Shown here: positions 5,053 to 34,005 of the stretch, piece by piece
How positions within the stretch are numbered: the stretch's first letter is position 1
How the letters are laid out: each line of letters starts with the position of its first letter
Source: an uncultured Lachnospiraceae bacterium
GTDB taxonomy: Bacteria > Bacillota > Clostridia > Lachnospirales > Lachnospiraceae
Direction: 5' to 3'
NCBI GenBank assembly: GCA_950097145.1
Contig: CATNCF010000023.1
Span: 1 to 46,844 of the forward strand
Length of the DNA stretch: 46,844 nucleotides
Position numbers and translations under genes: made by a program
The notes under the pieces: model-generated
What the model was told of the DNA's origin: nothing
The model's database searches: none
What the model saw: the letters and a program-made list of their open reading frames with translations, nothing else

Positions 5053-6163
5053 TAAGAAAAGAAACTATCTTTTGGTGAATCCTCTCCAGGGCAAACATGT
5101 TCCGGTAAGCCCTGGCCAGGCATTTCAGATGATGGACGCCCTTGCCGGAAAAATAAATTCTGTCTATCCCGGAGAACGGCTGCTGCTGGCGGGATTTGCG
5201 GAGACAGCCACGGCCATTGGAGCAAGGCTGGCCGTAAAGCTGAACACGGGGTATATCCAGACCACCAGGGAACAGGTTCCTGGGGCAGAGTATCTGTATT
5301 TTACCGAATCCCACAGCCATGCTGCAGAACAGAAACTGGTGAAAAATGATCTGGATGAAAAGATTCACCTTTTTGACCGTATTGTGTTTGTAGAGGATGA
5401 GGTGACCACGGGGAATACCATACTTAAAATTGTAAAAATTCTCGAAAAAACCTATCCTTCCACAGTAAAATTTTCTGTGGCTTCTCTGCTGAATGGAATG
5501 GATGAAGAGGCTCTGGAACGGTACAAGAAGCATGGAATCGCCCTGCATTATCTCTTAAAAACAGATCACAGCTTGTTTCCAGCGCAGGCAGAGAAATTCC
5601 GGGGAGACGGCACATATTTTTCCGGCTGGGGTCATGGTTCTGGGACAGTTTTACCTTCGGATTATCAGGATGACGGGCATCGTGTGAAAGAAATAGTTCT
5701 GCCGGGTTATCGGAATGCACGGAAATTTGTAGAGGGCTGTGATTATGGAAGAGCCTGCGAAGCACTCTGGAAACAGGTAAGAACATATATTCCGGCAGCG
5801 GAGGAAATGAGCTTTTTGGTTCTTGGCACAGAAGAATTTATGTATCCGGCGCTTTATACTGCTTTTCGATTGGAAGAAGCAGGCGGTAAGGTATGTTTTC
5901 ATGCCACGACCAGAAGCCCCATTGAGGTCAGCCGGGAAGAAAAATATCCTCTGCATGTCAGATATGAATTGCAAAGTTTTTATGAGAGCGGGCGCAGAAC
6001 CTTTGTGTATGACCTGAAAAAATATGACCAGGTATTGATTTTGACAGACGCTGTGCCTGGCAGCCAGGAGGGCCTGAATTCTTTGGCGGAGGCCCTTCAA
6101 TCAGCAGGAAATAAAAATATAACATGTTTTAGGTGGTGTGAAAATGCAGAGTTCCTATCGTGA
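5003..6163 (+). CDS. PRTase_2 / TRSP phosphoribosyltransferase-like protein of Ter-type modules
   Basis: I recognise this as the orotate-PRTase-like family with a C-terminal TRSP domain, usually found in Ter (tellurite/stress) loci. There it is predicted to help make a nucleoside-like metabolite. Residues about 20-215 carry the PRTase fold: [14 protein letters not shown] near 24-37 and a PRPP-binding-type loop [10 protein letters not shown] at 130-139. Residues about 230-380 match the TRSP part. The chosen start ATG 5003 overlaps ribH by 50 bases and leads straight into the conserved [12 protein letters not shown] block. The gene overlaps its StiP-like partner downstream. The biochemical product is unproven; the family call is firm, the role inferred. 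Confidence 0.85.
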
Positions 6164-7250
6164 AGAAGATGTGATTTTACTGCTGAAAGATATTACCGGA
6201 TTAGTGGAACCACAGTCCACACAGGAAAGAGAACGGCTGATACAGTCAGGGAAGCATTATTGTGAAATGCTTCCCATTGAGTATGTGCCCAGTGGTACGT
6301 ATATGCAAGTCTATCAGGAGGCTCTGAAAAATTATGCCCTGCCAACGGCTCAGGCTGTCTGCAGGCTGGGAGATTTGGCAGTGAGCCAAAGAGGAAGAAA
6401 TCTGGTTCTGGTTTCCCTGGCAAGAGCTGGCATTCCCATTGGCATTTTGCTGAAACGGTATCTTTCTAAGAAATACAAAATCAAAGCTGCACATTATTCT
6501 ATTTCCATTATACGGGGCAGGGGCATTGACAAAAACGCAATGAATTTTTTGCTGAGCCGTTATGAGCCGGAGCGTCTTCTTTTTGTAGACGGCTGGATTG
6601 GAAAAGGCGCTATTTTAAATGAATTAAAAAAAGAACTTGCCGCTTACCCTGGTGTATCCCCGGAAATTGCAGTGGCCGCTGACCCGGCAGGCGTGACAGA
6701 ACTGTGCGGCACCCATGAAGATATCCTGATTCCCAGTTCCTGCCTGAACAGCACAGTTTCCGGACTGGTGAGCCGGACAGTTCTGCGGGGGGACATTATC
6801 GGACCCAAAGATTTTCACGGAGCTGTCTACTATGGAGATTTAAAAGAACAGGACTTGTCTTATGCGTTTATTCAGGCTATCGAAGAAAAATTTGTGATAG
6901 AACCATGGGAAGGCCGGCACAGGAGAGATTGTGAAAAGCAAGTCAAAGAAAAAAGCAAACTGGATTCTGAGCTGTTCCCCACAGGGGAAACCGGGCTGGA
7001 TGAGGTGAAGCGTCTGGCAGGAGAATATGGAATAGCAGATATCAATTTAATCAAACCTGGCATTGGGGAAACAACCCGTGTGCTGCTTCGGAGGGTTCCA
7101 TGGAAGATTCTGGCGGCGCCGGGCTGGAAGAATGATCCTTCTGTGGCCCATATCCTGCGTCTGGCAGAAGAAAAAGGCGTTCCGGTAGAAGAACACCCCC
7201 TGAATCATTACAAGGTGTGTGGCATGATAAAGAAACTTGCAGATGCGTAG
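6144..7250 (+). CDS. StiP-family protein with C-terminal Pelota-like RNA-binding domain
   Basis: The 368-residue protein fits the family annotated as 'cysteine protease StiP'. Comparative genomics treats this family as a PRTase-related enzyme of Ter biosynthetic modules. Residues about 10-250 include SLARAGIPIGILLKRYL (91-107), SIIRGRGID and a PRPP-loop-like LLFVDGWIGKG (145-155). The last 85 residues (GLDEVKRLAGEYGIADINLI to the end) resemble the Pelota/L7Ae-like domain. ATG 6144 is preferred over in-frame GTG 6138 because AGGTGG lies 7 bases before it. It overlaps the PRTase/TRSP gene by 20 bases, a strong sign of paired function. No HAD, ATP-grasp or TerD partner is visible. Confidence 0.83.
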   Translation: MQSSYREEDVILLLKDITGLVEPQSTQERERLIQSGKHYCEMLPIEYVPSGTYMQVYQEALKNYALPTAQAVCRLGDLAVSQRGRNLVLVSLARAGIPIGILLKRYLSKKYKIKAAHYSISIIRGRGIDKNAMNFLLSRYEPERLLFVDGWIGKGAILNELKKELAAYPGVSPEIAVAADPAGVTELCGTHEDILIPSSCLNSTVSGLVSRTVLRGDIIGPKDFHGAVYYGDLKEQDLSYAFIQAIEEKFVIEPWEGRHRRDCEKQVKEKSKLDSELFPTGETGLDEVKRLAGEYGIADINLIKPGIGETTRVLLRRVPWKILAAPGWKNDPSVAHILRLAEEKGVPVEEHPLNHYKVCGMIKKLADA

Positions 7251-14158: not shown

Positions 14159-14827
14159 ATGTATGATCCATATGCAGTACTTGGCGTAGGGAGAAATGCC
14201 TCAGAGGAAGAAATTAAAAAAGCGTACCGTGCCTTAAGCCGGAAGTACCATCCAGACGCCAATGTGAATAATCCCAAGAAAGAACAGGCTGAGGAAAAAT
14301 TTAAGGAGATTCAGCAGGCTTACCAGCAGATTATGCATGAGAAAGAGCGTGGAAATTTCGGTGATTCTGCTTATGGGCATCAAGGCAGTTCCTGGGAGTT
14401 CGGAGATTTTTTCGGAGGTTTTGGGCAGCAGTCCAGGCAAAAGCAGAATCAGGATTCTGAGAGCGCCTATCAGCAGGCAGCGGCCAATTACATACGCAGC
14501 GGCCATTATCAGGAGGCATTAAATGTGTTAGATAGTATCAGAAATCGGGATGCCCACTGGTATTATTTGAACGCCATTGCAAATTCGGGGGCGGGAAATA
14601 ATGTGGCTGCTATGGAATCTGCCCAGCGTGCAGTGGCCATGGAACCGGGGAATCAGCAGTATCAACAGTTGTATGTTCAGCTTCAGAATGGCGGAAGCTG
14701 GTATTACAGCCAGCGGCAGGGCTATGGAAGCCCCATGGAGGGAAGTGGAAGTTTCTGCATGAAGCTTTGCCTCGCAAATATGGTATGCAACCTCTGCTGT
14801 GGAGGCAGCGGCTTTTGTTGTTACTAG
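14159..14827 (+). CDS. DnaJ-domain protein with TPR-like region and cysteine-rich tail
   Basis: Residues 1-65 are a J domain with the HPD tripeptide at 31-33, so it should stimulate an Hsp70 (DnaK) ATPase. The middle is Gly/Gln-rich ([11 protein letters not shown]). Residues about 105-180 look like TPR helices ([17 protein letters not shown]). The zinc-finger and substrate domains of true DnaJ are missing, so it is a specialised co-chaperone. The end is striking: seven cysteines in the last 26 residues, finishing GGSGFCCY. It follows the DUF5685 gene by three bases. Confidence 0.9.
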
Positions 14828-14864
14828 GGCGCTGCTTATAACAATAGATAGAGTGGGTGGAAAA

Positions 14865-15368
14865 ATGGATTATATGGTGTTGTATTCCAGCAAAACTGGA
14901 AATACCAAGAAGGTAGCCACAGAAATTTTCAGTGCACTTCCGGGAATGTCCAAGGATATGCAGAATATAGAGGAATACAGGGGAAAGGATGCAGATGTTT
15001 TTTTTGTGGGGTTCTGGGTAGACCGGGGGACTTGTTCCCTGCCGGTGATTGATATATTATCGGAGCTGCACGGCAAAAAGATTGCATTATTCGGAACCTG
15101 CGGCATGGGGAAGGGTACAGCGTATTACCGGACAATTGAACAAAAAGTAACTGTGTGGCTTCCAGATGATTGTGAATATCTGGGAATGTTTCTCTGCCAG
15201 GGGAAAATGCCTATGAAAGTACGGGAGAAATATGAGATTTCCAGGGAAGATCCCAGAGAAGAAGCATTACGGAAAGAAATGCTTAAAAATTTTGACGAGG
15301 CATTGTTTCACCCCAACGACGATGATCTGTCAGATGCCAGGGCATTTGTGGAACAAATGCTGAAATAG
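14865..15368 (+). CDS. Flavodoxin-family protein
   Basis: A 167-residue flavodoxin-like protein with the FMN phosphate loop YSSKTGNTKKVA at residues 6-17, followed by FVGFWVDRGT and LFGTCGMGKG. It would carry FMN as a one- or two-electron shuttle or act as an FMN-dependent reductase in the cytoplasm. Its partner is unknown. ATG 14865 is chosen because the flavodoxin fold starts there; the frame opens earlier inside the dnaJ-like gene. The upstream site (GAGTGGGTGG) is weak, and translation may be coupled to the gene before it. Confidence 0.88.
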   Translation: MDYMVLYSSKTGNTKKVATEIFSALPGMSKDMQNIEEYRGKDADVFFVGFWVDRGTCSLPVIDILSELHGKKIALFGTCGMGKGTAYYRTIEQKVTVWLPDDCEYLGMFLCQGKMPMKVREKYEISREDPREEALRKEMLKNFDEALFHPNDDDLSDARAFVEQMLK

Positions 15369-16491: not shown

Positions 16492-17484
16492 ATGAAGCGG
16501 ATTTCTCTGGAGGAATTGTTAAAAGATTATTCCAAAGAAGCATACAGCAGGCAGTATGCATATGTTATGGATTTAATTGCCAAGGGAGAATTAAAGCCAG
16601 TTAAGAGCGCTGGAACCAATAGCCGGAAGCCGGCTTTGTGCCTTTCTTATTGGCTGCCGGAGAAAGAGGATGCATCCAAAGAAGAATTGGAAGAAGAGCT
16701 GAAGTTTAAGCTTGTACCATTACTGTCTATAGACTACTATCTGTCCCATTTAAAGGAATATAAAAAGGACAGGCCGTGGGTGCTGATGCTGAATCAATAT
16801 CTTATGTCCCAAAGAGACTGTCTGGAACGGCCGGAATCTGTGAATGAACGCAGTTTTGAGATCTGGAATCGTGAGAAATTTCTTACCAGAGAGCAGGGAG
16901 CGAAGATCTTGAAACGGTGCGGGCTCTGCAGAGAAATTCTGAATATATACGATACAGCGGAACCTGTTGCTTACTATTGCCATACCAGGCAGGTTCCTCA
17001 GAATATGCTGATACTGGAGAATAAAGACACTTTTTTCAGTATGCGCAGGTTTATGTTAGAGGGAAATTCCACAATGTTTGGCATGGAGATTGGGACATTG
17101 ATCTATGGCGGTGGAAAACGGATTGTAAAGTCTTTCCAGGATTTTGACATCTCGGTGGAACCTTATATGAGGGCGGAAGAGAATCACATTTATTATTTTG
17201 GCGATTTGGACTATGAGGGGATTGGAATCTATGAGAGCCTGAATCAGCAGTGCCGGGAAAACAGGAAGCCTCTTGTGCTGACAGCGGCCTATGAGAAAAT
17301 GCTTGACAAGGCCAAGTATGTATTGGGGCTGCCAGAGACAAAAGAACAGCAGAACCGGAACCTGTCTGGAACATTTTTCTCTTTCTTTACAAAAGAGACA
17401 GTGAAACAGATGCAGGAAATTCTTAAAAAGAATCAGTATATTCCTCAGGAAATTTTAAACAGCCAGGATTTTCTAGTGTGCTGA
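16492..17484 (+). CDS. jetD: Wadjet anti-plasmid system nuclease JetD (Toprim)
   Basis: JetD is the Toprim nuclease of Wadjet (JetABCD/MksBEFG) systems, which cut circular plasmid DNA after loop extrusion by the SMC complex. The 330-residue protein has the C-terminal DUF2220-type Toprim domain: a glutamate in NMLILENKDTF near residue 175 and the metal-binding DxD in YFGDLDYEGIGIY (about 238-240). The N-terminal arm is helical. AAGGAGAGG gives a strong start at ATG 16492. Unusually, jetABC lies about 9.7 kb away on the same strand instead of adjacent. It is somewhat shorter than many JetD proteins. Identity is good; participation with jetABC here is inferred. Confidence 0.85.
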   Translation: MKRISLEELLKDYSKEAYSRQYAYVMDLIAKGELKPVKSAGTNSRKPALCLSYWLPEKEDASKEELEEELKFKLVPLLSIDYYLSHLKEYKKDRPWVLMLNQYLMSQRDCLERPESVNERSFEIWNREKFLTREQGAKILKRCGLCREILNIYDTAEPVAYYCHTRQVPQNMLILENKDTFFSMRRFMLEGNSTMFGMEIGTLIYGGGKRIVKSFQDFDISVEPYMRAEENHIYYFGDLDYEGIGIYESLNQQCRENRKPLVLTAAYEKMLDKAKYVLGLPETKEQQNRNLSGTFFSFFTKETVKQMQEILKKNQYIPQEILNSQDFLVC

Positions 17485-17765: not shown

Positions 17766-17793
17766 TTGACTTAGAATGAAATAATTATATAAT
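17766..17793 (+). promoter_or_regulatory. Promoter of the giant surface protein operon
   Basis: -35 TTGACT (17766-17771) and consensus -10 TATAAT (17788-17793) are separated by 16 bases. Transcription would begin near 17800, about 25 bases before the purine-type aptamer. Confidence 0.8.
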
Positions 17794-17824
17794 AATACAT
17801 ATATTATGAAAATTGACGAAACAA

Positions 17825-17891
17825 AAATTTATGTATGCTCATAATTGGTTGAGCGTTTCTACAAACCACCGTAATGGTTGACCATAAATTT
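17825..17891 (+). promoter_or_regulatory. Variant purine-class riboswitch aptamer
   Basis: The three-way junction can be traced base by base. P1 is AAATTTATG (17825-17833) with CATAAATTT (17883-17891). P2 is GCTCA/TGAGC (17837-17841, 17850-17854). J2/3 is GTTTCTAC (17855-17862). P3 is AACCA/TGGTT (17864-17868, 17875-17879) with loop CCGTAA, and J3/1 is GAC (17880-17882). The two loops keep GG and CC for the kissing contact. The specificity base equivalent to position 74 is C, as in guanine types. The P1-top pair is G-C instead of the usual A-U, P2 is short and J1/2 is UAU, so the ligand is uncertain. Confidence 0.82.
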
Positions 17892-17942
17892 CAGAAGAGA
17901 ATGGATTCTGATTTTTATGGTCAGCCGTTGCGGTATTTTTTT
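17868..17942 (+). terminator. Riboswitch terminator overlapping the aptamer (ON-switch layout)
   Basis: The 21-base arm 17868-17888, which includes aptamer loop L3, the P3 3' strand, J3/1 and most of the P1 3' strand, is fully complementary to 17914-17934 with only three G-U pairs. TTTTTTT follows at 17936-17942. Because this stem consumes aptamer strands, ligand binding should block it and allow transcription of the gene at 18212. Confidence 0.85.
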
Positions 17943-18211
17943 GCCAATAACACATTGGCGATTTAAAGTGTTAGCGTATTAAACATAGCTTTTTTGTGTG
18001 ATGAAAAATATAAAGCCATATTTTCTATAGAAAACGTGCGGCATGTTCCGTCTTGTATTTTGAATAAATCGCCCGGAAAGACAGAGTTCCTTGAGGGGCA
18101 GGAAAGAAGTCTTTCTGAAATCAAGGGTGGTTTAGATACTGGAATTCATGACATGCTTTGGCAGTCAGAGAATTCTAACCAAAAATTTTTAATGTAAAAG
18201 GAGGAAGAGCT
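17943..18211. other. Leader between riboswitch terminator and giant gene
   Basis: The 269-base leader starts with a compact fold: GCCAAT/ATTGGC (17943-17948, 17954-17959) whose loop AACAC is complementary to GTGTT at 17968-17972, a possible pseudoknot. A TTG-started frame covers 17994-18197 but has no ribosome binding site, so I do not call it a gene. AAAGGAGG just before 18212 is the start signal for the large protein. Confidence 0.4.
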
Positions 18212-25764: not shown

Positions 25765-26913
25765 ATGAGCAAAATAGGAAAAATAGTAATTTTTATTGCG
25801 GCTGCAACGCTGTTTGTGGGCATACTATATTATGCAAACAATGACAGACCTGCTTATCACAGCAGCGATACAGCCGGTATTGAATATGAAGTAGCAAAGG
25901 TGACGCGGGTACTTGAAAACCGCGTCACCGTAGATGAAGAAATGGAGGGAATCTGGCGGGGCAGTATGACCCTGGAGGTTGAGATTCTCACTGGAAGATA
26001 TAAAGGCGATACTGCGGTGGTGGAGAATTATTTCAGTTCTCTGTATAATGTCCGTGTGGGCAAGGGCGACAAGGTCTCCATCCGAATTGATACTTCTGGA
26101 AAAGGGGAGTACCAGGTTTCCATCTATAATTATTACCGTGTGCCGTGGCTCATTGGCTGCATCTTGGTCTTTGTGGCTCTGCTGGTGATTGTAGGAGGCA
26201 AAAAAGGCGCGAAGTCAGTGGCGGGCCTGTTGTTTACCATGGTATGCATCATCTGGATTCTGCTTCCGCTGTCATTAAAGGGATATTCTCCTCTGGGGGT
26301 TACAATCATTTTGGTTTTGATATGCAATTTTGTTACCTTTTTTCTAATTGACGGAGTCTGCACGAAAACAGTGGTGGCCGCCTTTGGAAGTCTTGGCGGC
26401 GTACTGGTGGGAGCCGTATTTTCTCTTATTGCACAAGGAATCATGTCAGTAACCACCTATCAGATGGATGAGGCGGAAACGCTGCTTCTAATCACAAGCA
26501 CTACAGAATTGGAGGTGAAGAATCTGTTTCTCTGCGGAGTATTGATTGCCTGTATGGGGGCAGTGATGGACGTAGCCATGAGTATTGCTTCTTCTATCGC
26601 AGAGCTTCATGAGGTAAATCCTTCGCTGGGCGCTGCAAAGTTATTTGCTTCTGGTATGAATATCGGAAAAGACGCCATGGGTACGATGTCTAATACACTG
26701 ATACTGGCATTTGCCGGAGGTTCATTTAATATGATGCTGATGATTTACTCATATGGAGTAAGCTTTCAGCAGTTGATGAACACCGATTTTGTGGCGATTG
26801 AAGTGATACAGGCGATCGCTGGAAGTGTGGGTATTATCTGTACGGTTCCCCTTGTGGCGGCTCTGGCTGCAAATGTCTTTAGCCGAAGCAAAGTAAAAAC
26901 CAGGAAAAAATGA
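25765..26913 (+). CDS. YibE/F-family membrane protein
   Basis: The 382-residue protein has an N-terminal membrane anchor (about 8-24), an extracytoplasmic beta-rich segment (about 45-125: AKVTRVLENRVTVDEEMEGIW...) and about seven further hydrophobic helices. It ends with a conserved block including GAVMDVAMSIASSIAELHEVNP and GKDAMGTMSNTLILAFAG, hallmarks of YibE/F. The function of the family is unknown; relatives are predicted multi-pass transporters. It starts 15 bases after the giant gene with a weak GGACGGA site, so it is probably read from the riboswitch-controlled promoter and might handle products of that extracellular enzyme. Confidence 0.9.
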   Translation: MSKIGKIVIFIAAATLFVGILYYANNDRPAYHSSDTAGIEYEVAKVTRVLENRVTVDEEMEGIWRGSMTLEVEILTGRYKGDTAVVENYFSSLYNVRVGKGDKVSIRIDTSGKGEYQVSIYNYYRVPWLIGCILVFVALLVIVGGKKGAKSVAGLLFTMVCIIWILLPLSLKGYSPLGVTIILVLICNFVTFFLIDGVCTKTVVAAFGSLGGVLVGAVFSLIAQGIMSVTTYQMDEAETLLLITSTTELEVKNLFLCGVLIACMGAVMDVAMSIASSIAELHEVNPSLGAAKLFASGMNIGKDAMGTMSNTLILAFAGGSFNMMLMIYSYGVSFQQLMNTDFVAIEVIQAIAGSVGIICTVPLVAALAANVFSRSKVKTRKK

Positions 26914-27176: not shown

Positions 27177-28796
27177 ATGCAGTATGAATTTTTAAAACAT
27201 TTTCCCAGGCGGATGAAAAATGTGGGACTGTATACCGTACTGGTACAGAACAGCCTGCAGAAGGCATCCTGGAAGAAATATGGTTTTCAGAAGACAGATG
27301 AGCAGTTCAATATGATTTTTGCAGTGCTCCTCTATATTATGGAACAGTCTTTGAAGGAAGAACGCTGTACCATGGATGATATCGGCGCTTATATTGATAC
27401 CATCAATACCCAGTATTTTGAAAAGCATTTGTCCTATGACGACTGCCGTACACTGGGGGATTTTATTGTAAATGTGGTATTGTCCAATGAGGGCAGGACC
27501 ATGTATTTTGACGGTTTTGATTTTGAACAAAAAGCATATCAGATTATAAATATCAGTTATGTAGCAAATCGGATTGTATACAGTGAGCAGGATGTGAAGC
27601 GCACTTCTTATTATCTCACCGATGACGGTTATAATCTCTTGTTATCCACGTTAGAAATTGAAAATAATATGAAGCTGACGATCCATGAGATGATTTTTCA
27701 GATGCATCTGGAAAAACAGAGCTACGATAAAGCAGTAGATGAAATTAAAAATGTATTCAGCCTTCTGCGTATCCAGCTCCAGAAAATTCAGGAGGCCATG
27801 GGAAAAATCCGCAGAAACGCCCTGAATTATTCTGTGCGGGATTACCAGGAAATTTTGAATGAAAATCTTGAGACGATCAGCGATACCAAAGAGAAGTTCC
27901 AGCATTACCGGGAATTGGTAAAGAGCCGTGTCAAAGAGCTGGAGGAGTCCAATATCAATGTGCGCAGGCTCACAGAGAAGGAAGAAGAGAAGCTGAAATC
28001 TTTAAGAGAGATTGAGCATTATTTAAAGAGGACCATCGACGAGCATCAAAAGATTTTAAACAGCCATTTTGATTTGAAATCTCTGTATACCAGAGAACTG
28101 GAAGCTTTATCACAGATGTCTTTTATACAGCGTTTTCCCCTGCGGACAAGCCTGTATGATAAAATCCTGGAAGACCCAGGAGCCATAGGAAGGCTGGAAT
28201 ATTTTCTGCGCCCGCTGTTTAGCCGGGAATTGGAAAAATCCTATAATCTGAATAAAGCGTTTCATTTGCAGCGGCCAGTGCGAAAAACGAAAAAAGAGGA
28301 CGCAGGGGAGCCTTTGGATTTTGATGCCGGAGCCTGGGAGGAAGAACAGGAACGGATGCAGAGAGAAAGGCTTATGCTGTATGAGAAAAGCCTTTCTTAT
28401 CTTTTAAGACAGGCATCGGCGCAGGGAGAAATTTCCTTAAAGGATATTTCCATTTTGGCAATATTAGAAGGCAGGCAGCAGGAGCTGATACCCAATGTGG
28501 AGATTTTTAAGGAAATTATGGTGGAGCTGCTGCGCAATAAAGAGATTGACATTCCAGCGCTGAAGAAGGAACAGAGCGAGTATATCGGGGAACAGACAGG
28601 AGAATTCCAGTTAAATGTGATGCTGCTGCATTTGGCAGAAGAATATCCCCAGTTTCAGGATATTCTGCGGATAGAGACTTACCGTTTGAACGATGGAAAT
28701 GTGGTGGTTTTTCCAGATGTTTTGGATGAAAACGGAGAGAAAAAAACCATACGGTGTTCCAATGTGAAGATACGGGTGATAAAGGAGGGACAGTAA
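27177..28796 (+). CDS. jetA: Wadjet JetA-like (kleisin-type) subunit
   Basis: The 539-residue protein fits the JetA family of type II-like Wadjet systems (DUF5716, from memory). In Wadjet complexes JetA is the kleisin that bridges the SMC heads. Seen here are an N-terminal winged-helix-like region (MQYEFLKHFPRRMKNVGLY... to about 110), long helical and coiled-coil segments (about 190-320), an acidic linker near 380-400 and a C-terminal small helical domain. No catalytic motif is expected. ACGGAGGAATTCC precedes ATG 27177. It is followed after three bases by the jetB-like gene, the usual order JetA-JetB-JetC. Confidence 0.82.
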   Translation: MQYEFLKHFPRRMKNVGLYTVLVQNSLQKASWKKYGFQKTDEQFNMIFAVLLYIMEQSLKEERCTMDDIGAYIDTINTQYFEKHLSYDDCRTLGDFIVNVVLSNEGRTMYFDGFDFEQKAYQIINISYVANRIVYSEQDVKRTSYYLTDDGYNLLLSTLEIENNMKLTIHEMIFQMHLEKQSYDKAVDEIKNVFSLLRIQLQKIQEAMGKIRRNALNYSVRDYQEILNENLETISDTKEKFQHYRELVKSRVKELEESNINVRRLTEKEEEKLKSLREIEHYLKRTIDEHQKILNSHFDLKSLYTRELEALSQMSFIQRFPLRTSLYDKILEDPGAIGRLEYFLRPLFSRELEKSYNLNKAFHLQRPVRKTKKEDAGEPLDFDAGAWEEEQERMQRERLMLYEKSLSYLLRQASAQGEISLKDISILAILEGRQQELIPNVEIFKEIMVELLRNKEIDIPALKKEQSEYIGEQTGEFQLNVMLLHLAEEYPQFQDILRIETYRLNDGNVVVFPDVLDENGEKKTIRCSNVKIRVIKEGQ

Positions 28797-28799
28797 AAC

Positions 28800-29534
28800 A
28801 TGGCATATGAAGCAGAAGAAATCAGGCAGAGCCAGGAAATTTTTTATTATCTGCTGGAACATTATGAACTGCAGGAGGAACAGGAGCAGCTTCTGTACCG
28901 TGCCTATGCAGAGAAAGAAGAAGTCCAGAACCTGGTGAAATCCCAGGGGGAAATTGCGTTGTGCAATGTGGAGCGGTACGGCAATGTAATTTATCTTATT
29001 CCCAAAGAAGAGAATCATTTCCTGGGGTTTTCCAAAGCCCAGTTGAAAAATGCCCTCTGTAAATCCAATGCCACAGATAAGGATTATTACTTGTCACAGT
29101 TTGTGATTCTCACCCTTTTGACAGAGTTTTTTGACGGGCAGGGAAGCAGCAGTAAATCCCGGGAATATATGCGTGTGGGAGAGCTGCAGAATTGTATTTC
29201 CCAGAGATTGAAAGAGGGGGTAAGGAATATTGCGCCGGAAGAGGAGGAGCATGTTGGAATCGCATATTCCAATATGATGGAGGCGTATGAGGCCCTGCGT
29301 TCCGATGAAAAAGGATCCCGGGCCAAAACGACCAAAGAAGGGTTTCTCCACCATATTTTGACATTTTTGCAGAAACAGGGATTGATTGAGTACGTAGAAC
29401 AGGATGAAATGATAAAGACTACCAGGAAATTGGACAGTTTTATGGACTGGAATTTACTGAACCAGAATAATTACCAGAGAATTCAAAAGGTGCTGGGACA
29501 GGCATCGGAGTCCATGGGAGGAGAACATGAGTAA
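28800..29534 (+). CDS. jetB: Wadjet JetB-like (KITE-type) subunit
   Basis: The 244-residue protein between jetA and jetC matches JetB by size and position. In Wadjet complexes this is the winged-helix KITE subunit that binds the kleisin and DNA (I recall this variant as DUF6063). Sequence features are an acidic helical N-terminus (EAEEIRQSQEIFYYLLEHYEL), a winged-helix-like middle (NVIYLIPKEENHFLGFSKAQLK) and a helical C-terminus. AAAGGAGGG precedes ATG 28800. Its stop overlaps the jetC start by 8 bases (ATGAGTAA), ensuring coupled translation. Confidence 0.8.
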   Translation: MAYEAEEIRQSQEIFYYLLEHYELQEEQEQLLYRAYAEKEEVQNLVKSQGEIALCNVERYGNVIYLIPKEENHFLGFSKAQLKNALCKSNATDKDYYLSQFVILTLLTEFFDGQGSSSKSREYMRVGELQNCISQRLKEGVRNIAPEEEEHVGIAYSNMMEAYEALRSDEKGSRAKTTKEGFLHHILTFLQKQGLIEYVEQDEMIKTTRKLDSFMDWNLLNQNNYQRIQKVLGQASESMGGEHE

Positions 29535-32500
29535 GATTAATGCAGTGAGACTGATAAATATCAATTATAATAATAATGCTATCCGCATCAGCGATGAAAC
29601 TTTTCATTTTAATGGGGAAAGCACTCTGATGTCTCTGCGCAACGGCGGAGGAAAATCTGTACTGGTGCAGATGCTGACAGCGCCTTTTGTCCATAAGCGT
29701 TACCGGGACGCCAAGGACCGTCCCTTTGAAAGCTATTTTACCACCAATAAACCTTCATTTATTATGACAGAATGGGTGCTGGATAAGGGGGCGGGCTATG
29801 TGCTTGCGGGCATGATGGTGCGCAAGGCTCTGGACAATGAGGAACATGCCGGGGAAGGACTTGAAATGGTGAATTTTATCAGCGAATACCCCAATCCCTG
29901 CCTTCATGATATCCATCATCTTCCGGTGCTGGAGAAGGGAAAGCGGGAAATTGTTTTGAAAAGCTTTGGGGCCTGCCGCCAGATGTTCGAGAGTTATAAG
30001 AAGGACTCAGCCATGAAATTTTTCTGCTATGATATGGGAAATGGAGCCCAGTCCCGCCAGTATTTTGATAAATTGCTGGAATACCAGATTAATTACAAAG
30101 AATGGGAAGGGATTATCAAAAAGGTGAATCTCAAGGAGTCCGGCTTGTCAGATTTGTTTGCAGACTGCCGTGATGAGAAGGGATTGGTGGAAAAATGGTT
30201 TTTGGATGCAGTGGAAAACAAATTGAACAAAGAGAAAAACCGCATGAAGGAATTTCAGGTGATTTTAGAAAAGTATGTGGGGCAGTATAAGGAAAATCAG
30301 TCTAAAATCAAAAGACGGGATATCATACGGCTGTTTCAGCAGGAAGCCCAGGGCATTCAGGAGAAAAACAACCATTATCTGGAGAGCGAGGAGAATGTTA
30401 AGAGGCAGGAAAACCAGATTGCCTGTTTTCGGGAGATATTGGAAGGGCTTCATCAGCAAACAGGGGAAGAACTCCAGGAAAATGACAGCCAGGCAGAACG
30501 GCTGGAACAGGAATTGGCGCACCTCTTGTATCAGAAACTGTCAGAAGAATATTATCGTCTGGAAGAGGAGAAAAATTTTCACGTGGGAAACCGGGAAATG
30601 ATTTCCATGGAACAGGACGGTTTAGAACGAGAAGCGGAACAAATACAGCGAAACCTTCATGTCCTTGCCTGTGCAAGACAGCAGAAGGCGGTAAATGAGG
30701 AAAAAGCAGATTGGGAATCGGCGCGTCAGCGTTTATTGGTGGCGAGAGAACGCAAGGAGGATTTAGAGCCGGAGCGAGGCAGCCTTGGATATCTTCTGCG
30801 TTGTCATTATCAGTCTGCTTTGGCCCGGACGGAAGAAAAACGCAGAGAAAATCAAGCGCAGTTTACAGTGGCACAAGAACATATGCACAAAGAGCAGGAA
30901 ACCCTTCGAGAACTTGAAGAATCTTTGCGGAATAACGCTTTGCGTATGGGAGAGCTAAAGAGTAAAATTGCAGGTTATGACAGGCAGGAGGAGCAGTTCA
31001 ATAAGCATTTTAAGGAACAGCTTACCAGAAATATTCTAGGCGAATATGAGCCGGGCAGTTTGGAAGTGTTTGGAGAGGTTTTAAAGAAGAAACTGGAAGA
31101 GGCGGCGCGCCAGAAGGTTCGGCAGAACAAGGAGCTGGAACAGAAAAAGACGGAGAGAGTCAGTCTGGAACACAAGATTGCAGGCCAGAAAGAGGATCGT
31201 ACCCGCGGGCTGGCAAGACAGGAGCAGCAAAAAGAACTTCAGGAGAGTTATGAACAGGAACTGAAACAGCGCCAGGCAGTTTTGAAATATCTGGAACTGG
31301 AGGAAACAGCCCTGTTTGAGGAGGAAAAAATTTATCAGGCGGCAGACCGTAAATTAAAGGAAATTGAAATTTTCCGGCGCAGCCTGGAACGGGAAGAACA
31401 TGAGCTGCAGAAGGAATACCAGAGGCTCACGGAGGGTAAAGTGCTGGAACTTCCGCCAGAGCTGTTAGAAGAATTCGAGCGCCAGGGCATCCACACAGTA
31501 TATGGCATGGAATGGCTGAAAAAAAATGGATATTCCAAAAAGAAAAACGAAGAGCTGGTACAAAATCATCCCTTCCTGCCGTATGCCTTAATTTTGTCAG
31601 AGGGAGAGGTGGAAAAACTCTCAAAGCTTACTGGGACAGTCCCCACAGCATTTCCGATTCCTATTATTCTGCGGAAAGATTTGGAACAGCAGGAAGCCAG
31701 GGGCGAAGGAAATGTACTTCATTTCCAAAATCTCAGCTTTTATGTGCTGTTTAATGAAAATCTTCTGGACGAGGAGAAGCTTGCGAAGCTTGTGGCAGAA
31801 AAGCAGCGCCAGATTGAGAAAAAACAGGAAATGATTGCTGTCCGCAGGCAGGAATATCAGGAGTACTTTGCCTGGAAAGAGCAGATAAGAAATCAGAAGG
31901 TCAGCAAAGAAAATTATCAAAAGAACCAGGCGCAGATTGCAGAATTAGCAGAGCAGATTCAGAATCTGGGAAAAGAAATCCGTTCCAGTGCCCAGGAATT
32001 ATCTAAAAATCAAGAGCAGATCACAAATCTGGAAAAAGAAATCCGCGAATTAGACAGGGATATGGAATCTTTACAGCGAAAAAATTCAGAATTTCGAGAG
32101 CTTAAGGCTGCTTATGAAGAATACAGGGAAAACCGCAGACAGCAGGAAAAGCGCCAAAAAGAAGAATTGCGGTTTACAGAAAACCAGAAATTATCCCGGT
32201 TAAAGACAGAAAAGCTTCAGGAACAGATACAGAGCCTGCAGAATCTTATGGCCATTTTAGAACGGGAACAGGAACAGTCCAGCAAGCAGCTGGGACTTTA
32301 CCAGGGATATGAAAAAGTGACAAAAAAAGAGCTGAAAAAATCGCTGCCAGAACCCGTATTAAAACAAATTATTTTGGAAAAAAGAGAGGAGACAGAGCAG
32401 ATAGAAGACTGGCAGGTGAATCTGCCGGAGCTGGAGGCCAGGTTTGCGGCAGTGACAGCGAACATCTCACAGGAAATCCGTGAGCTGGAATCTGCAGAAC

Positions 32501-34005
32501 AGCGGAGCGGAAGAAAATACCAGCAGGCACAGGAAGAATTGGCCCACCTTGCGGAAAAATATCATCTTTCTAAGAAAGACTGGCAGGAAACAGCATACAG
32601 CCGCAGGGAAGAGAACGATTTAGAAGTCCGCCTGGAAGACCGGAGAATGAAAATTAAGGTAAAAGAGGGCCTATGGAATCAGGAAGATAAGCAGATCGCT
32701 CTGTTTCTTCAGCAAATGCAGGAGCGGAACCAGCAGATTAAGGATGGGTGCGGCAAAGGGGAACCTTTGCCCAGAGAGGAGATACCAAAAGAAGATTTTG
32801 ATTCCAGGAAACATCAATTGGACTATCAGTACCAGGAACTTCAGAAAGCTGGGAATGTGCTGCAGAGCCGCCTTCACAGTTATGATGAGAATTTGACAGC
32901 CCTTGCCGAGTACAGTGAATTGACGGTAGAGGAACCTGTGGACTTTGGGCAGGATTTTTCTGTGATGGATACCCGTGCATTACGGAATTTTAAGGGGATA
33001 CTCCTTCGTGATTACAATAAATTCTGCATCGGCCGAAGAGAGGCCAGGGAGCGTCTTGTGCACGTGCTGAACCAGACAGTCCGCATGGAATGTTTCCAGG
33101 AAGATTTTTATCGCAAACCTTTGGAGGCAATGCTTGAATTGTCTGGAGACGCCTCTCAGGTGCAGCGCCAGTTGGAGACTACAATCCAGTCCTATGAAAA
33201 TCTCATGGAAAAACTGGAGGTGGATATTTCTGTGGTAGAGAAAGAGAAGAGCAAGATTGTGGAACTGCTGGAAGAATATCTCAAAGAAGTGCACCAAAAT
33301 CTAGGCAGAATCGATCATAATTCTACCATTACCATCCGGGAACGTCCTGTGAAGATGCTGAAAATTCAACTTCCTTCTTGGGAAGAGAGTGAGAGCATGT
33401 ACCATATCCGGCTGCAGGATTTTATCGATGAGCTCACCAGGAAGGGGATTGCTATTTTTGAGAAAAATGAAAATGCTCAGGAATATTTCGGCACACAGTT
33501 GACCACTAAGAACCTTTATGATACGGTAGTGGGCATTGGCAATATACAGATCCGCCTGTATAAAATTGAAGAGCAGCGGGAATATCCCATTACCTGGGCC
33601 GAAGTGGCCAGAAATTCGGGCGGAGAAGGATTTCTTTCTGCGTTTGTGGTGTTGTCCAGCCTGCTGTATTTTATGCGCAGAGATGATTCAGATTTGTTCG
33701 CAGACAGGAATGAAGGAAAAGTCCTTCTGATGGATAATCCTTTTGCCCAGACCAATGCGGCGCATCTCTTAAGGCCGTTGATGGATATGGCGAAAAAGAC
33801 CAATACCCAGTTGATTTGTTTCACGGGACTTGGCGGAGAGTCCATTTACAGCCGGTTTGATAATATTTATGTGCTGAACCTCATTGCTGCAAGCCTGCGC
33901 CAGGGGATGCAGTACTTAAGGGCGGATCATATGCGTGGAAATGAGCCGGAAACTATAATTTCTGCCCAAATTGAAGTGGTGGGGCAGCAGGAGCTGGTGT
34001 TTTAA
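29527..34005 (+). CDS. jetC: Wadjet SMC-like ATPase JetC
   Basis: A 1492-residue SMC/MukB-type ATPase, the DNA-loop-extruding motor of Wadjet. The Walker A motif is RNGGGKSVL at residues 38-46. The signature motif is NSGGEGFLSAF near 1362, and the Walker B-like strand is VLLMDNPFAQTNAAHLL near 1398, with Asn where many ABC ATPases have the catalytic Glu. Between the heads lie two very long coiled-coil arms rich in Glu, Gln and Arg. A globular hinge-like stretch near 640-760 (VYGMEWLKKNGYSKKK ... LSFYVLFNENLL) separates them. It ends the operon; a strong terminator follows. The nuclease jetD is missing here and found upstream near 16.5 kb. Confidence 0.88.
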   Translation: MSKINAVRLININYNNNAIRISDETFHFNGESTLMSLRNGGGKSVLVQMLTAPFVHKRYRDAKDRPFESYFTTNKPSFIMTEWVLDKGAGYVLAGMMVRKALDNEEHAGEGLEMVNFISEYPNPCLHDIHHLPVLEKGKREIVLKSFGACRQMFESYKKDSAMKFFCYDMGNGAQSRQYFDKLLEYQINYKEWEGIIKKVNLKESGLSDLFADCRDEKGLVEKWFLDAVENKLNKEKNRMKEFQVILEKYVGQYKENQSKIKRRDIIRLFQQEAQGIQEKNNHYLESEENVKRQENQIACFREILEGLHQQTGEELQENDSQAERLEQELAHLLYQKLSEEYYRLEEEKNFHVGNREMISMEQDGLEREAEQIQRNLHVLACARQQKAVNEEKADWESARQRLLVARERKEDLEPERGSLGYLLRCHYQSALARTEEKRRENQAQFTVAQEHMHKEQETLRELEESLRNNALRMGELKSKIAGYDRQEEQFNKHFKEQLTRNILGEYEPGSLEVFGEVLKKKLEEAARQKVRQNKELEQKKTERVSLEHKIAGQKEDRTRGLARQEQQKELQESYEQELKQRQAVLKYLELEETALFEEEKIYQAADRKLKEIEIFRRSLEREEHELQKEYQRLTEGKVLELPPELLEEFERQGIHTVYGMEWLKKNGYSKKKNEELVQNHPFLPYALILSEGEVEKLSKLTGTVPTAFPIPIILRKDLEQQEARGEGNVLHFQNLSFYVLFNENLLDEEKLAKLVAEKQRQIEKKQEMIAVRRQEYQEYFAWKEQIRNQKVSKENYQKNQAQIAELAEQIQNLGKEIRSSAQELSKNQEQITNLEKEIRELDRDMESLQRKNSEFRELKAAYEEYRENRRQQEKRQKEELRFTENQKLSRLKTEKLQEQIQSLQNLMAILEREQEQSSKQLGLYQGYEKVTKKELKKSLPEPVLKQIILEKREETEQIEDWQVNLPELEARFAAVTANISQEIRELESAEQRSGRKYQQAQEELAHLAEKYHLSKKDWQETAYSRREENDLEVRLEDRRMKIKVKEGLWNQEDKQIALFLQQMQERNQQIKDGCGKGEPLPREEIPKEDFDSRKHQLDYQYQELQKAGNVLQSRLHSYDENLTALAEYSELTVEEPVDFGQDFSVMDTRALRNFKGILLRDYNKFCIGRREARERLVHVLNQTVRMECFQEDFYRKPLEAMLELSGDASQVQRQLETTIQSYENLMEKLEVDISVVEKEKSKIVELLEEYLKEVHQNLGRIDHNSTITIRERPVKMLKIQLPSWEESESMYHIRLQDFIDELTRKGIAIFEKNENAQEYFGTQLTTKNLYDTVVGIGNIQIRLYKIEEQREYPITWAEVARNSGGEGFLSAFVVLSSLLYFMRRDDSDLFADRNEGKVLLMDNPFAQTNAAHLLRPLMDMAKKTNTQLICFTGLGGESIYSRFDNIYVLNLIAASLRQGMQYLRADHMRGNEPETIISAQIEVVGQQELVF

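Follow-up and report, generated by a model that had tools for sequence, protein, structure and literature searches.

Background

In adenine ON switches such as pbuE, the terminator arm is drawn from the 3' half of the aptamer. Guanine riboswitches have been viewed as essentially OFF devices: in the available sections of the papers cited here and below, guanine-I switches are described as commonly lowering expression and as favouring guanine over hypoxanthine and xanthine by no more than about tenfold (PMC9295807), and the four guanine switches of C. difficile as OFF (PMC11477304). The same available text presents guanine-II of Paenibacillus as a predicted guanine ON switch, and xanthine-II and 2'-dG-III as also consistent with ON control (PMC9295807). 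Within the pocket, U22, U51 and C74 are named as guanine contacts (PMC9295807), and 51 and 74 as the specificity positions (PMC8872408, PMC9295807). The pair A21-U75 is nearly invariant in the other purine classes, and 2'-dG-II has a G-C pair at this junction-proximal end of P1 (PMC8872408); in simulations, A21 stacks on the ligand hypoxanthine (PMC6649850).

We investigated an RNA of this kind in a stretch of 46,844 nucleotides (hereafter the window) from an uncultured Lachnospiraceae bacterium, whose genome assembly is 82.8% complete. A sequence-only reading had proposed a purine riboswitch arranged as a transcriptional ON switch with a guanine-type specificity base, and had considered this combination unusual. 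The reading that we favour, with a probability of roughly 0.65 given the sequence evidence set out below, is that of a guanine-I-type transcriptional ON switch serving nucleoside or nucleic-acid scavenging.

Results and discussion

An aptamer and a terminator that exclude each other

The window contains a single purine-class aptamer above the Rfam cut-off, a match to RF00167 (Purine) at 17809-17904 on the + strand that scores 51.7 bits against a gathering cut-off of 37; one overlapping match of lower score, to a further, unnamed family in a shared Rfam clan, was left out. Its structural elements and those of its surroundings are collected in Table 1. In the parse, P2 of the window copy comprises 5 pairs, the next position placing U opposite U, and L2 and L3 are each one base short, as they are in many Lachnospiraceae aptamers. 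Within the genus, 2 of 29 genomes (our own included) have an RF00167 match, with two copies each, and the TTGAC and TATAA elements of the promoter are invariant across the leaders of all four copies, from the window's species and a sister species. For transcripts truncated after P1, folding gives the aptamer as the optimum in two of these four copies, including that of the window; in the remaining two (L002 and L004) the full canonical aptamer is not the minimum fold, and L004 scores only 40.1 bits against RF00167.

Table 1. Features of the riboswitch locus, in window coordinates
Feature	Position	Strand	Evidence or remark
Sigma-70-type promoter TTGACT-16-TATAAT	17766-17793	+	consensus matches 11/12
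Purine-class aptamer	17826-17890	+	RF00167 match, structural parse, core bases checked
P1	17826-17833/17883-17890	+	parse
Junction-proximal P1 pair	17833 (G) / 17883 (C)	+	A-U in relatives
J1/2	17834-17836	+	parse; bases UAU
P2 and its loop	17837-17854	+	parse
J2/3	17855-17862	+	parse; 8 bases, GUUUCUAC
P3	17863-17868/17875-17880	+	parse
L3	17869-17874	+	parse
J3/1	17881-17882	+	parse; 2 bases, AC
Specificity bases	17860 (U51 equivalent), 17882 (C74 equivalent)	+	bases checked; roles as given in the available text of PMC8872408 and PMC9295807
Terminator 5' arm	17868-17888	+	pairs 21/21; overlaps L3, P3 3' strand, J3/1, P1 3' strand
Inner 6-bp hairpin capping the terminator	17891-17911	+	present in terminator fold and aptamer-forced fold
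Terminator 3' arm (17914-17934) and T-run (17935-17942)	17914-17942	+	pairing, fold, sequence
Ribosome-binding site GGAGG	18200-18204	+	read from sequence
PHP1, putative regulated gene, 2512 aa	18212-25750	+	signal-peptide-like start, CehA/McbA (PHP-type) metallohydrolase domain, Big_2 repeats
YibE/F-like protein	25765-26913	+	PF07907, 261.8 bits; 14 nt after PHP1

The two terminator arms (17868-17888 and 17914-17934) are paired at all 21 of their positions, by 18 Watson-Crick and 3 G-U pairs. The 5' arm begins at the last base of the 5' strand of P3 (17868) and takes in six bases of the 3' strand of P1 (17883-17888). Between 17837-17890 and 17891-17960, unbroken pairing extends over at most 21 pairs; with 17891-17960 dinucleotide-shuffled 2000 times, the maximum was 15. 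The minimum fold of 17820-17942 is the terminator, at -50.7 kcal/mol (z -8.98; none of 200 shuffles as good), compared with -22.9 kcal/mol for the best fold in which the aptamer is forced. No separate downstream terminator of the window copy passed the test of our terminator script, and the aptamer, the promoter and the terminator overlap are retained in all four copies of the two species. As judged from sequence and predicted folds, this is an ON layout: the terminator arm and the aptamer are mutually exclusive, and therefore ligand binding should favour read-through. Most of the sequence-only reading thus stands, namely the purine-class aptamer, the 21-position arm drawn from L3, P3, J3/1 and P1 strands, the transcriptional ON arrangement, and the C at position 74 (17882) of a guanine-type pocket.

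A guanine-type ON layout is common in the family

We searched 397 Lachnospiraceae genomes with the RF00167 profile, 86 of which had a match, and oriented and parsed 114 aptamers, out of 115 rows taken, as a family sample, one row (G164:C337) having been dropped because it lay at a contig edge. First-look candidates were scored only in part (93 per genome in the genus, 9 in the family and 12 in the phylum), which makes absences soft. An aptamer was called ON if the 5' arm of a T-tailed hairpin began 3 or more bases inside it, the hairpin having 8 or more pairs and an energy of -12 kcal/mol or lower, and 'OFF' denotes just a terminator downstream of the aptamer. On these definitions the family sample yields 71 ON and 25 OFF calls, with 18 aptamers showing neither; five sets with shuffled downstream sequence gave 4-6 ON calls of 114. 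Position 74 is C in 112 of the 114, the others being L016, which is probably misparsed, and L011 (G402:C64), whose U makes it adenine-type and the only clear case of this kind in the sample. A phylum sample of 90 rows from among the best-scoring matches listed (30 automatic loci and 60 picked further down), all with C74, comprises 17 ON, 44 OFF and 29 neither, these ON calls carrying no shuffle control, so that some of the 17 may be false. The ON share differs between the two samples (71/114 versus 17/90, Fisher p 5e-10).

Because ON was called in 71/114 and 17/90, the guanine-type ON layout, as defined on sequence, is ordinary in the Lachnospiraceae and also present outside the family. The view that it is rare was rejected on these counts, and with it the one claim of the sequence-only reading that fails, since the available text of PMC9295807 also puts a predicted guanine-II ON switch in print. 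Among the nearest neighbours of the four genus copies outside the genus (7 for each, 28 listings), 26 are ON-layout aptamers, mostly preceding guanine-deaminase-like, xanthine-dehydrogenase-like or permease genes. By downstream group, ON was called for 27/43 amidohydrolase, 15/21 FAD oxidoreductase, 10/14 NCS2-type permease, 5/5 xanthine-dehydrogenase-like, 2/4 MATE and 3/13 Bmp loci, and 57 of the 71 ON aptamers precede guanine-deaminase-like, FAD-oxidoreductase, permease or xanthine-dehydrogenase-like genes. These groups were built by taking the longest ORF near each aptamer and clustering by single-linkage BLAST, a procedure that may miss the true first gene, and representatives of some groups were scanned with profiles. 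For the amidohydrolases, the representative L099 scores 364.6 bits against guanine deaminase, slightly below the cut-off of 375.4, and the xanthine-dehydrogenase-like label is a reading of the protein start alone. In the open-licence literature, covered mostly as titles and the starts of abstracts, we found no account of Lachnospiraceae guanine-deaminase genes preceded by guanine-I ON switches, which is weak evidence of absence. One locus upstream of a gene of the guanine-deaminase-like group (L052, G337:C5:124712-124974) carries tandem purine aptamers 67 bases apart.

We also considered whether Bmp importers elsewhere in the family are OFF-controlled, the direction being reversed in the genus, and this idea was left weak. 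At 10 of the 13 Bmp loci a terminator lies downstream of the aptamer. In an antiterminator test of these 10, L007 alone reached 6/200 shuffles, 8 gave 25-134/200, and L103 was unscorable. Besides copy L004, six Bmp proteins match that of our genome, at 23-29% identity over about 150 residues.

The ligand pocket and its closing pair

By xpt-style numbering, we take window positions 17834, 17860 and 17882 to be the equivalents of 22, 51 and 74; they hold T, T and C, so that the guanine contact bases U22, U51 and C74 are all kept. J1/2 (UAU), J2/3 (GUUUCUAC) and J3/1 (AC) are each common among the 114 Lachnospiraceae aptamers. The comparison with the described classes is as follows: 1) Guanine-I resembles the window RNA in its three-stem junction, J2/3 sequence, U22, U51 and C74, and in the score above the Rfam gathering threshold; the window RNA differs in its ON layout, in a P1 closed by G-C rather than A-U, and in the short L2 and L3. 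2) Guanine-II of Paenibacillus has the same three contacts and a predicted ON switch, but carries a one-base J2/3 insertion according to the available text (PMC9295807), and the assignment was rejected because J2/3 here has its 8 bases without it and J3/1 has 2. 3) Xanthine-II, which carries U51G and has both J2/3 and J3/1 enlarged by insertions, was rejected since 17860 is U and both joining regions have the lengths just given. 4) 2'-dG-II (RF03165) shares the G-C pair adjoining the junction, as far as the available sections describe it (PMC8872408), but has C at 51 and a two-base insertion in J3/1, and was rejected on the U at 17860 and on J3/1 being AC without insertion; in our genome neither RF03165 (150 of 367 first-look candidates scored) nor 2dG-I (150 of 234) gave a match at E<=1. 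5) 2'-dG-III resembles the window RNA in a predicted ON layout upstream of a nucleoside-breakdown gene, but deviates from the consensus in all three joining regions in the available account (PMC9295807); it was rejected, those of the window RNA being ordinary. 6) Adenine ON switches of the pbuE kind differ from the window RNA, which has C, not U, at position 74.

What sets the genus apart is the pair closing P1, which the sequence-only reading had passed over. It is G-C in 4 of 204 parsed aptamers, precisely the four copies of the two sister species (4/114 in the Lachnospiraceae, 0/90 in the phylum sample), and A-U in 109/114 Lachnospiraceae aptamers (109/110 outside the genus, the exception being L016 with its doubtful parse) and in 90/90 of the phylum sample. 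The change sits at a sensitive place of the pocket. A gapped pattern for the G-C variant, which in addition prescribes parts of J2/3, L3 and the length of P3 and hence lets looser variants escape, found 4 loci in a collection of 84,980 species, from which entries close to the window's genome may be missing. Two of the loci are in Lachnospiraceae bacterium B84_9_MI_BP (matching G014), and two chance-looking ones in a Neomarinimicrobiota MAG and in Epilithonimonas.

Separately, position 73 in J3/1 is variable among the 114 aptamers (AC 75, TC 18, CC 7, GC 3), and some loci have a longer J3/1 (CGC, TGC and GGC, two each); the loci showing J3/1 variation include L020, L031, L044 and L060 and may represent further pocket variants.

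Genes downstream of the two putative switches

The gene after the window aptamer encodes PHP1, whose CehA/McbA domain, at about residues 898-1245, matches NF038032 at 120.8 bits (cut-off 80). Its further domains are Big_2, CHB_HEX_C_1 and a borderline tRNA_anti-codon OB-fold match (27.2 bits, cut-off 27). The candidate metal-binding His, Asp and Glu residues, picked by what we take to be the PHP motif, are invariant in 5 aligned sequences; comparison of the domain with solved structures gave 4 rows, each a ubiquitin fusion or a designed repeat protein, and none of them a useful match. The YibE/F-like gene that follows is probably co-transcribed with PHP1.

The second copy in our genome, on contig C28, lies upstream of 12 co-directional genes that probably form one transcript. 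In order, these encode a Bmp/PnrA binding protein, an ABC ATPase, two permeases, uridine phosphorylase, DeoC, cytidine deaminase, adenosine deaminase, DeoB (phosphopentomutase), a YczE-like protein (assigned below the cut-off), an inosine/guanosine purine nucleoside phosphorylase (PNP) and, after a gap of 175 bases, PHP2, a secreted paralogue of PHP1 of 2078 aa. PHP2 scores 63.4 for CehA/McbA, below the cut-off of 80, but the PHP2 pair aligns to PHP1 at 47-48% across the domain. Judged from ORF starts, the same series of ORFs follows the copy in the sister species, with Bmp 93% and PNP 95% identical. Relatives of these proteins also occur in genomes without an RF00167 match: one of PHP1 (60%) in G005 and one of PNP (65%) in G003. 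The stretch fetched from G005 contains one bare GTTTCTAC about 0.8 kb before the PHP1 relative, inside another ORF and with no L3 motif after it. A search of G000 and G014 for guanine-deaminase relatives gave none at E<=0.001; guanine would therefore not be consumed there as in the relatives described above. From their gene company, the PHP proteins perhaps act in nucleic-acid use.

Other features of the window were recorded alongside. Type III Wadjet genes flank the block of riboswitch, PHP1 and YibE/F-like gene, with JetD3 upstream (16492-17484) and JetA3, JetB3 and JetC3 downstream (27177-34005), as if the block lay inside or beside a Wadjet defence operon. An FMN riboswitch (RF00050, 70.3 bits, cut-off 66.2) lies at the left end, at 580-716, and the window also encodes a StiP-type cysteine protease with a PELOTA domain, a tellurite-like stress gene (6138-7250), and the flavodoxin-family protein BilS (14799-15368; NCBIfam 184.1 bits, cut-off 155).

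A proposed mechanism and its competitors

The favoured reading takes the aptamer, the exclusive terminator, the guanine contact bases, the promoter and the gene content from the sequence, and adds guanine as the probable ligand, predicted ligand-dependent read-through and a putative substrate for the PHP proteins. RNA polymerase would first make the three-stem aptamer (17826-17890). With guanine or a close guanine compound bound, P1 and P3 would be held, the 3' arm (17914-17934) could not invade, and transcription would run on into the secreted PHP-hydrolase gene; in the unbound state the 21-pair terminator would form, and transcription would stop near 17942. Together with the switch on C28, this would constitute one RNA-run regulon, in which guanine freed when PNP splits guanine nucleosides reports a supply of nucleic acids or nucleosides, and the output is their digestion, uptake and use. 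Guanine is favoured as the signal because the contact bases checked are those of the guanine type.

A nucleoside might be sensed in place of the base: the natural ligand would be guanosine or 2'-deoxyguanosine, the G-C pair would retune a guanine-I pocket, and the imported substrate would induce its own use directly. We consider this unlikely, although it accounts for several observations. The available sections of PMC8872408 present the replacement of A-U by G-C as characteristic of 2'-dG-II, the G-C pair is kept in all four copies, the C28 genes are nucleoside and deoxyribose genes, and the change of pocket coincides with the change of genes, an argument of the type used for 2'-dG-III, which is also predicted to be ON. 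On the other side, base 51 is U here, and in that same paper, as far as available, replacing C51 by U costs 2'-dG-II 18-fold in affinity, and U51C alone turns a guanine aptamer to dG. Further, J3/1 is without insertion, the 2'-dG searches of our genome gave no match at E<=1 among the candidates scored, and the joint change, being confined to one lineage, may be an accident of ancestry; since all four copies come from that lineage, the association of pocket and genes counts as a single event. The deoxyguanosine option of the sequence-only reading is accordingly mixed in outcome, U51 and the length of J3/1 speaking against it and the G-C pair and the deoxyribose gene on C28 leaving room for it. 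In its fullest form, the idea is of a so far undescribed purine riboswitch variant with U51 and a 2'-dG-II-like G-C floor pair, which would be adapted to guanine nucleosides and induce a regulon of two loci for digestion of extracellular nucleic acids, nucleoside import and breakdown of bases and (deoxy)ribose; this seems to us similarly doubtful.

Still within guanine-I, the aptamer could have the ordinary broad taste of that class and respond in the cell mainly to hypoxanthine or xanthine produced by the regulon's adenosine deaminase and PNP. Both genes do follow the C28 copy, and the roughly tenfold selectivity against these bases reported in the available part of PMC9295807 would permit it, but the contact bases are the same as in aptamers before guanine-deaminase-like genes, and we regard this version as a long shot. 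That the switch is OFF, or the element a decayed relic, is very improbable. The 5-pair P2 followed by U-U and the 40.1 bits of L004 lend this little support, and against it stand the removal of the aptamer when the terminator forms, the window copy's want of a separate downstream terminator passing the script's test, and a core, promoter and overlap kept in four copies.

Conclusions

The ON layout called in 71 of 114 family aptamers, in the company of purine-breakdown genes, qualifies the view of guanine riboswitches as essentially OFF; if the layout works as read, guanine would induce its own breakdown in those relatives. In the G-C variant, nature provides a test of the influence that a single stacked pair below the ligand has on the choice between guanine and nucleoside. 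Finally, the shared switch connects nucleoside use with two giant secreted PHP proteins that otherwise lack an explanation, which provides a direct functional hypothesis for both.
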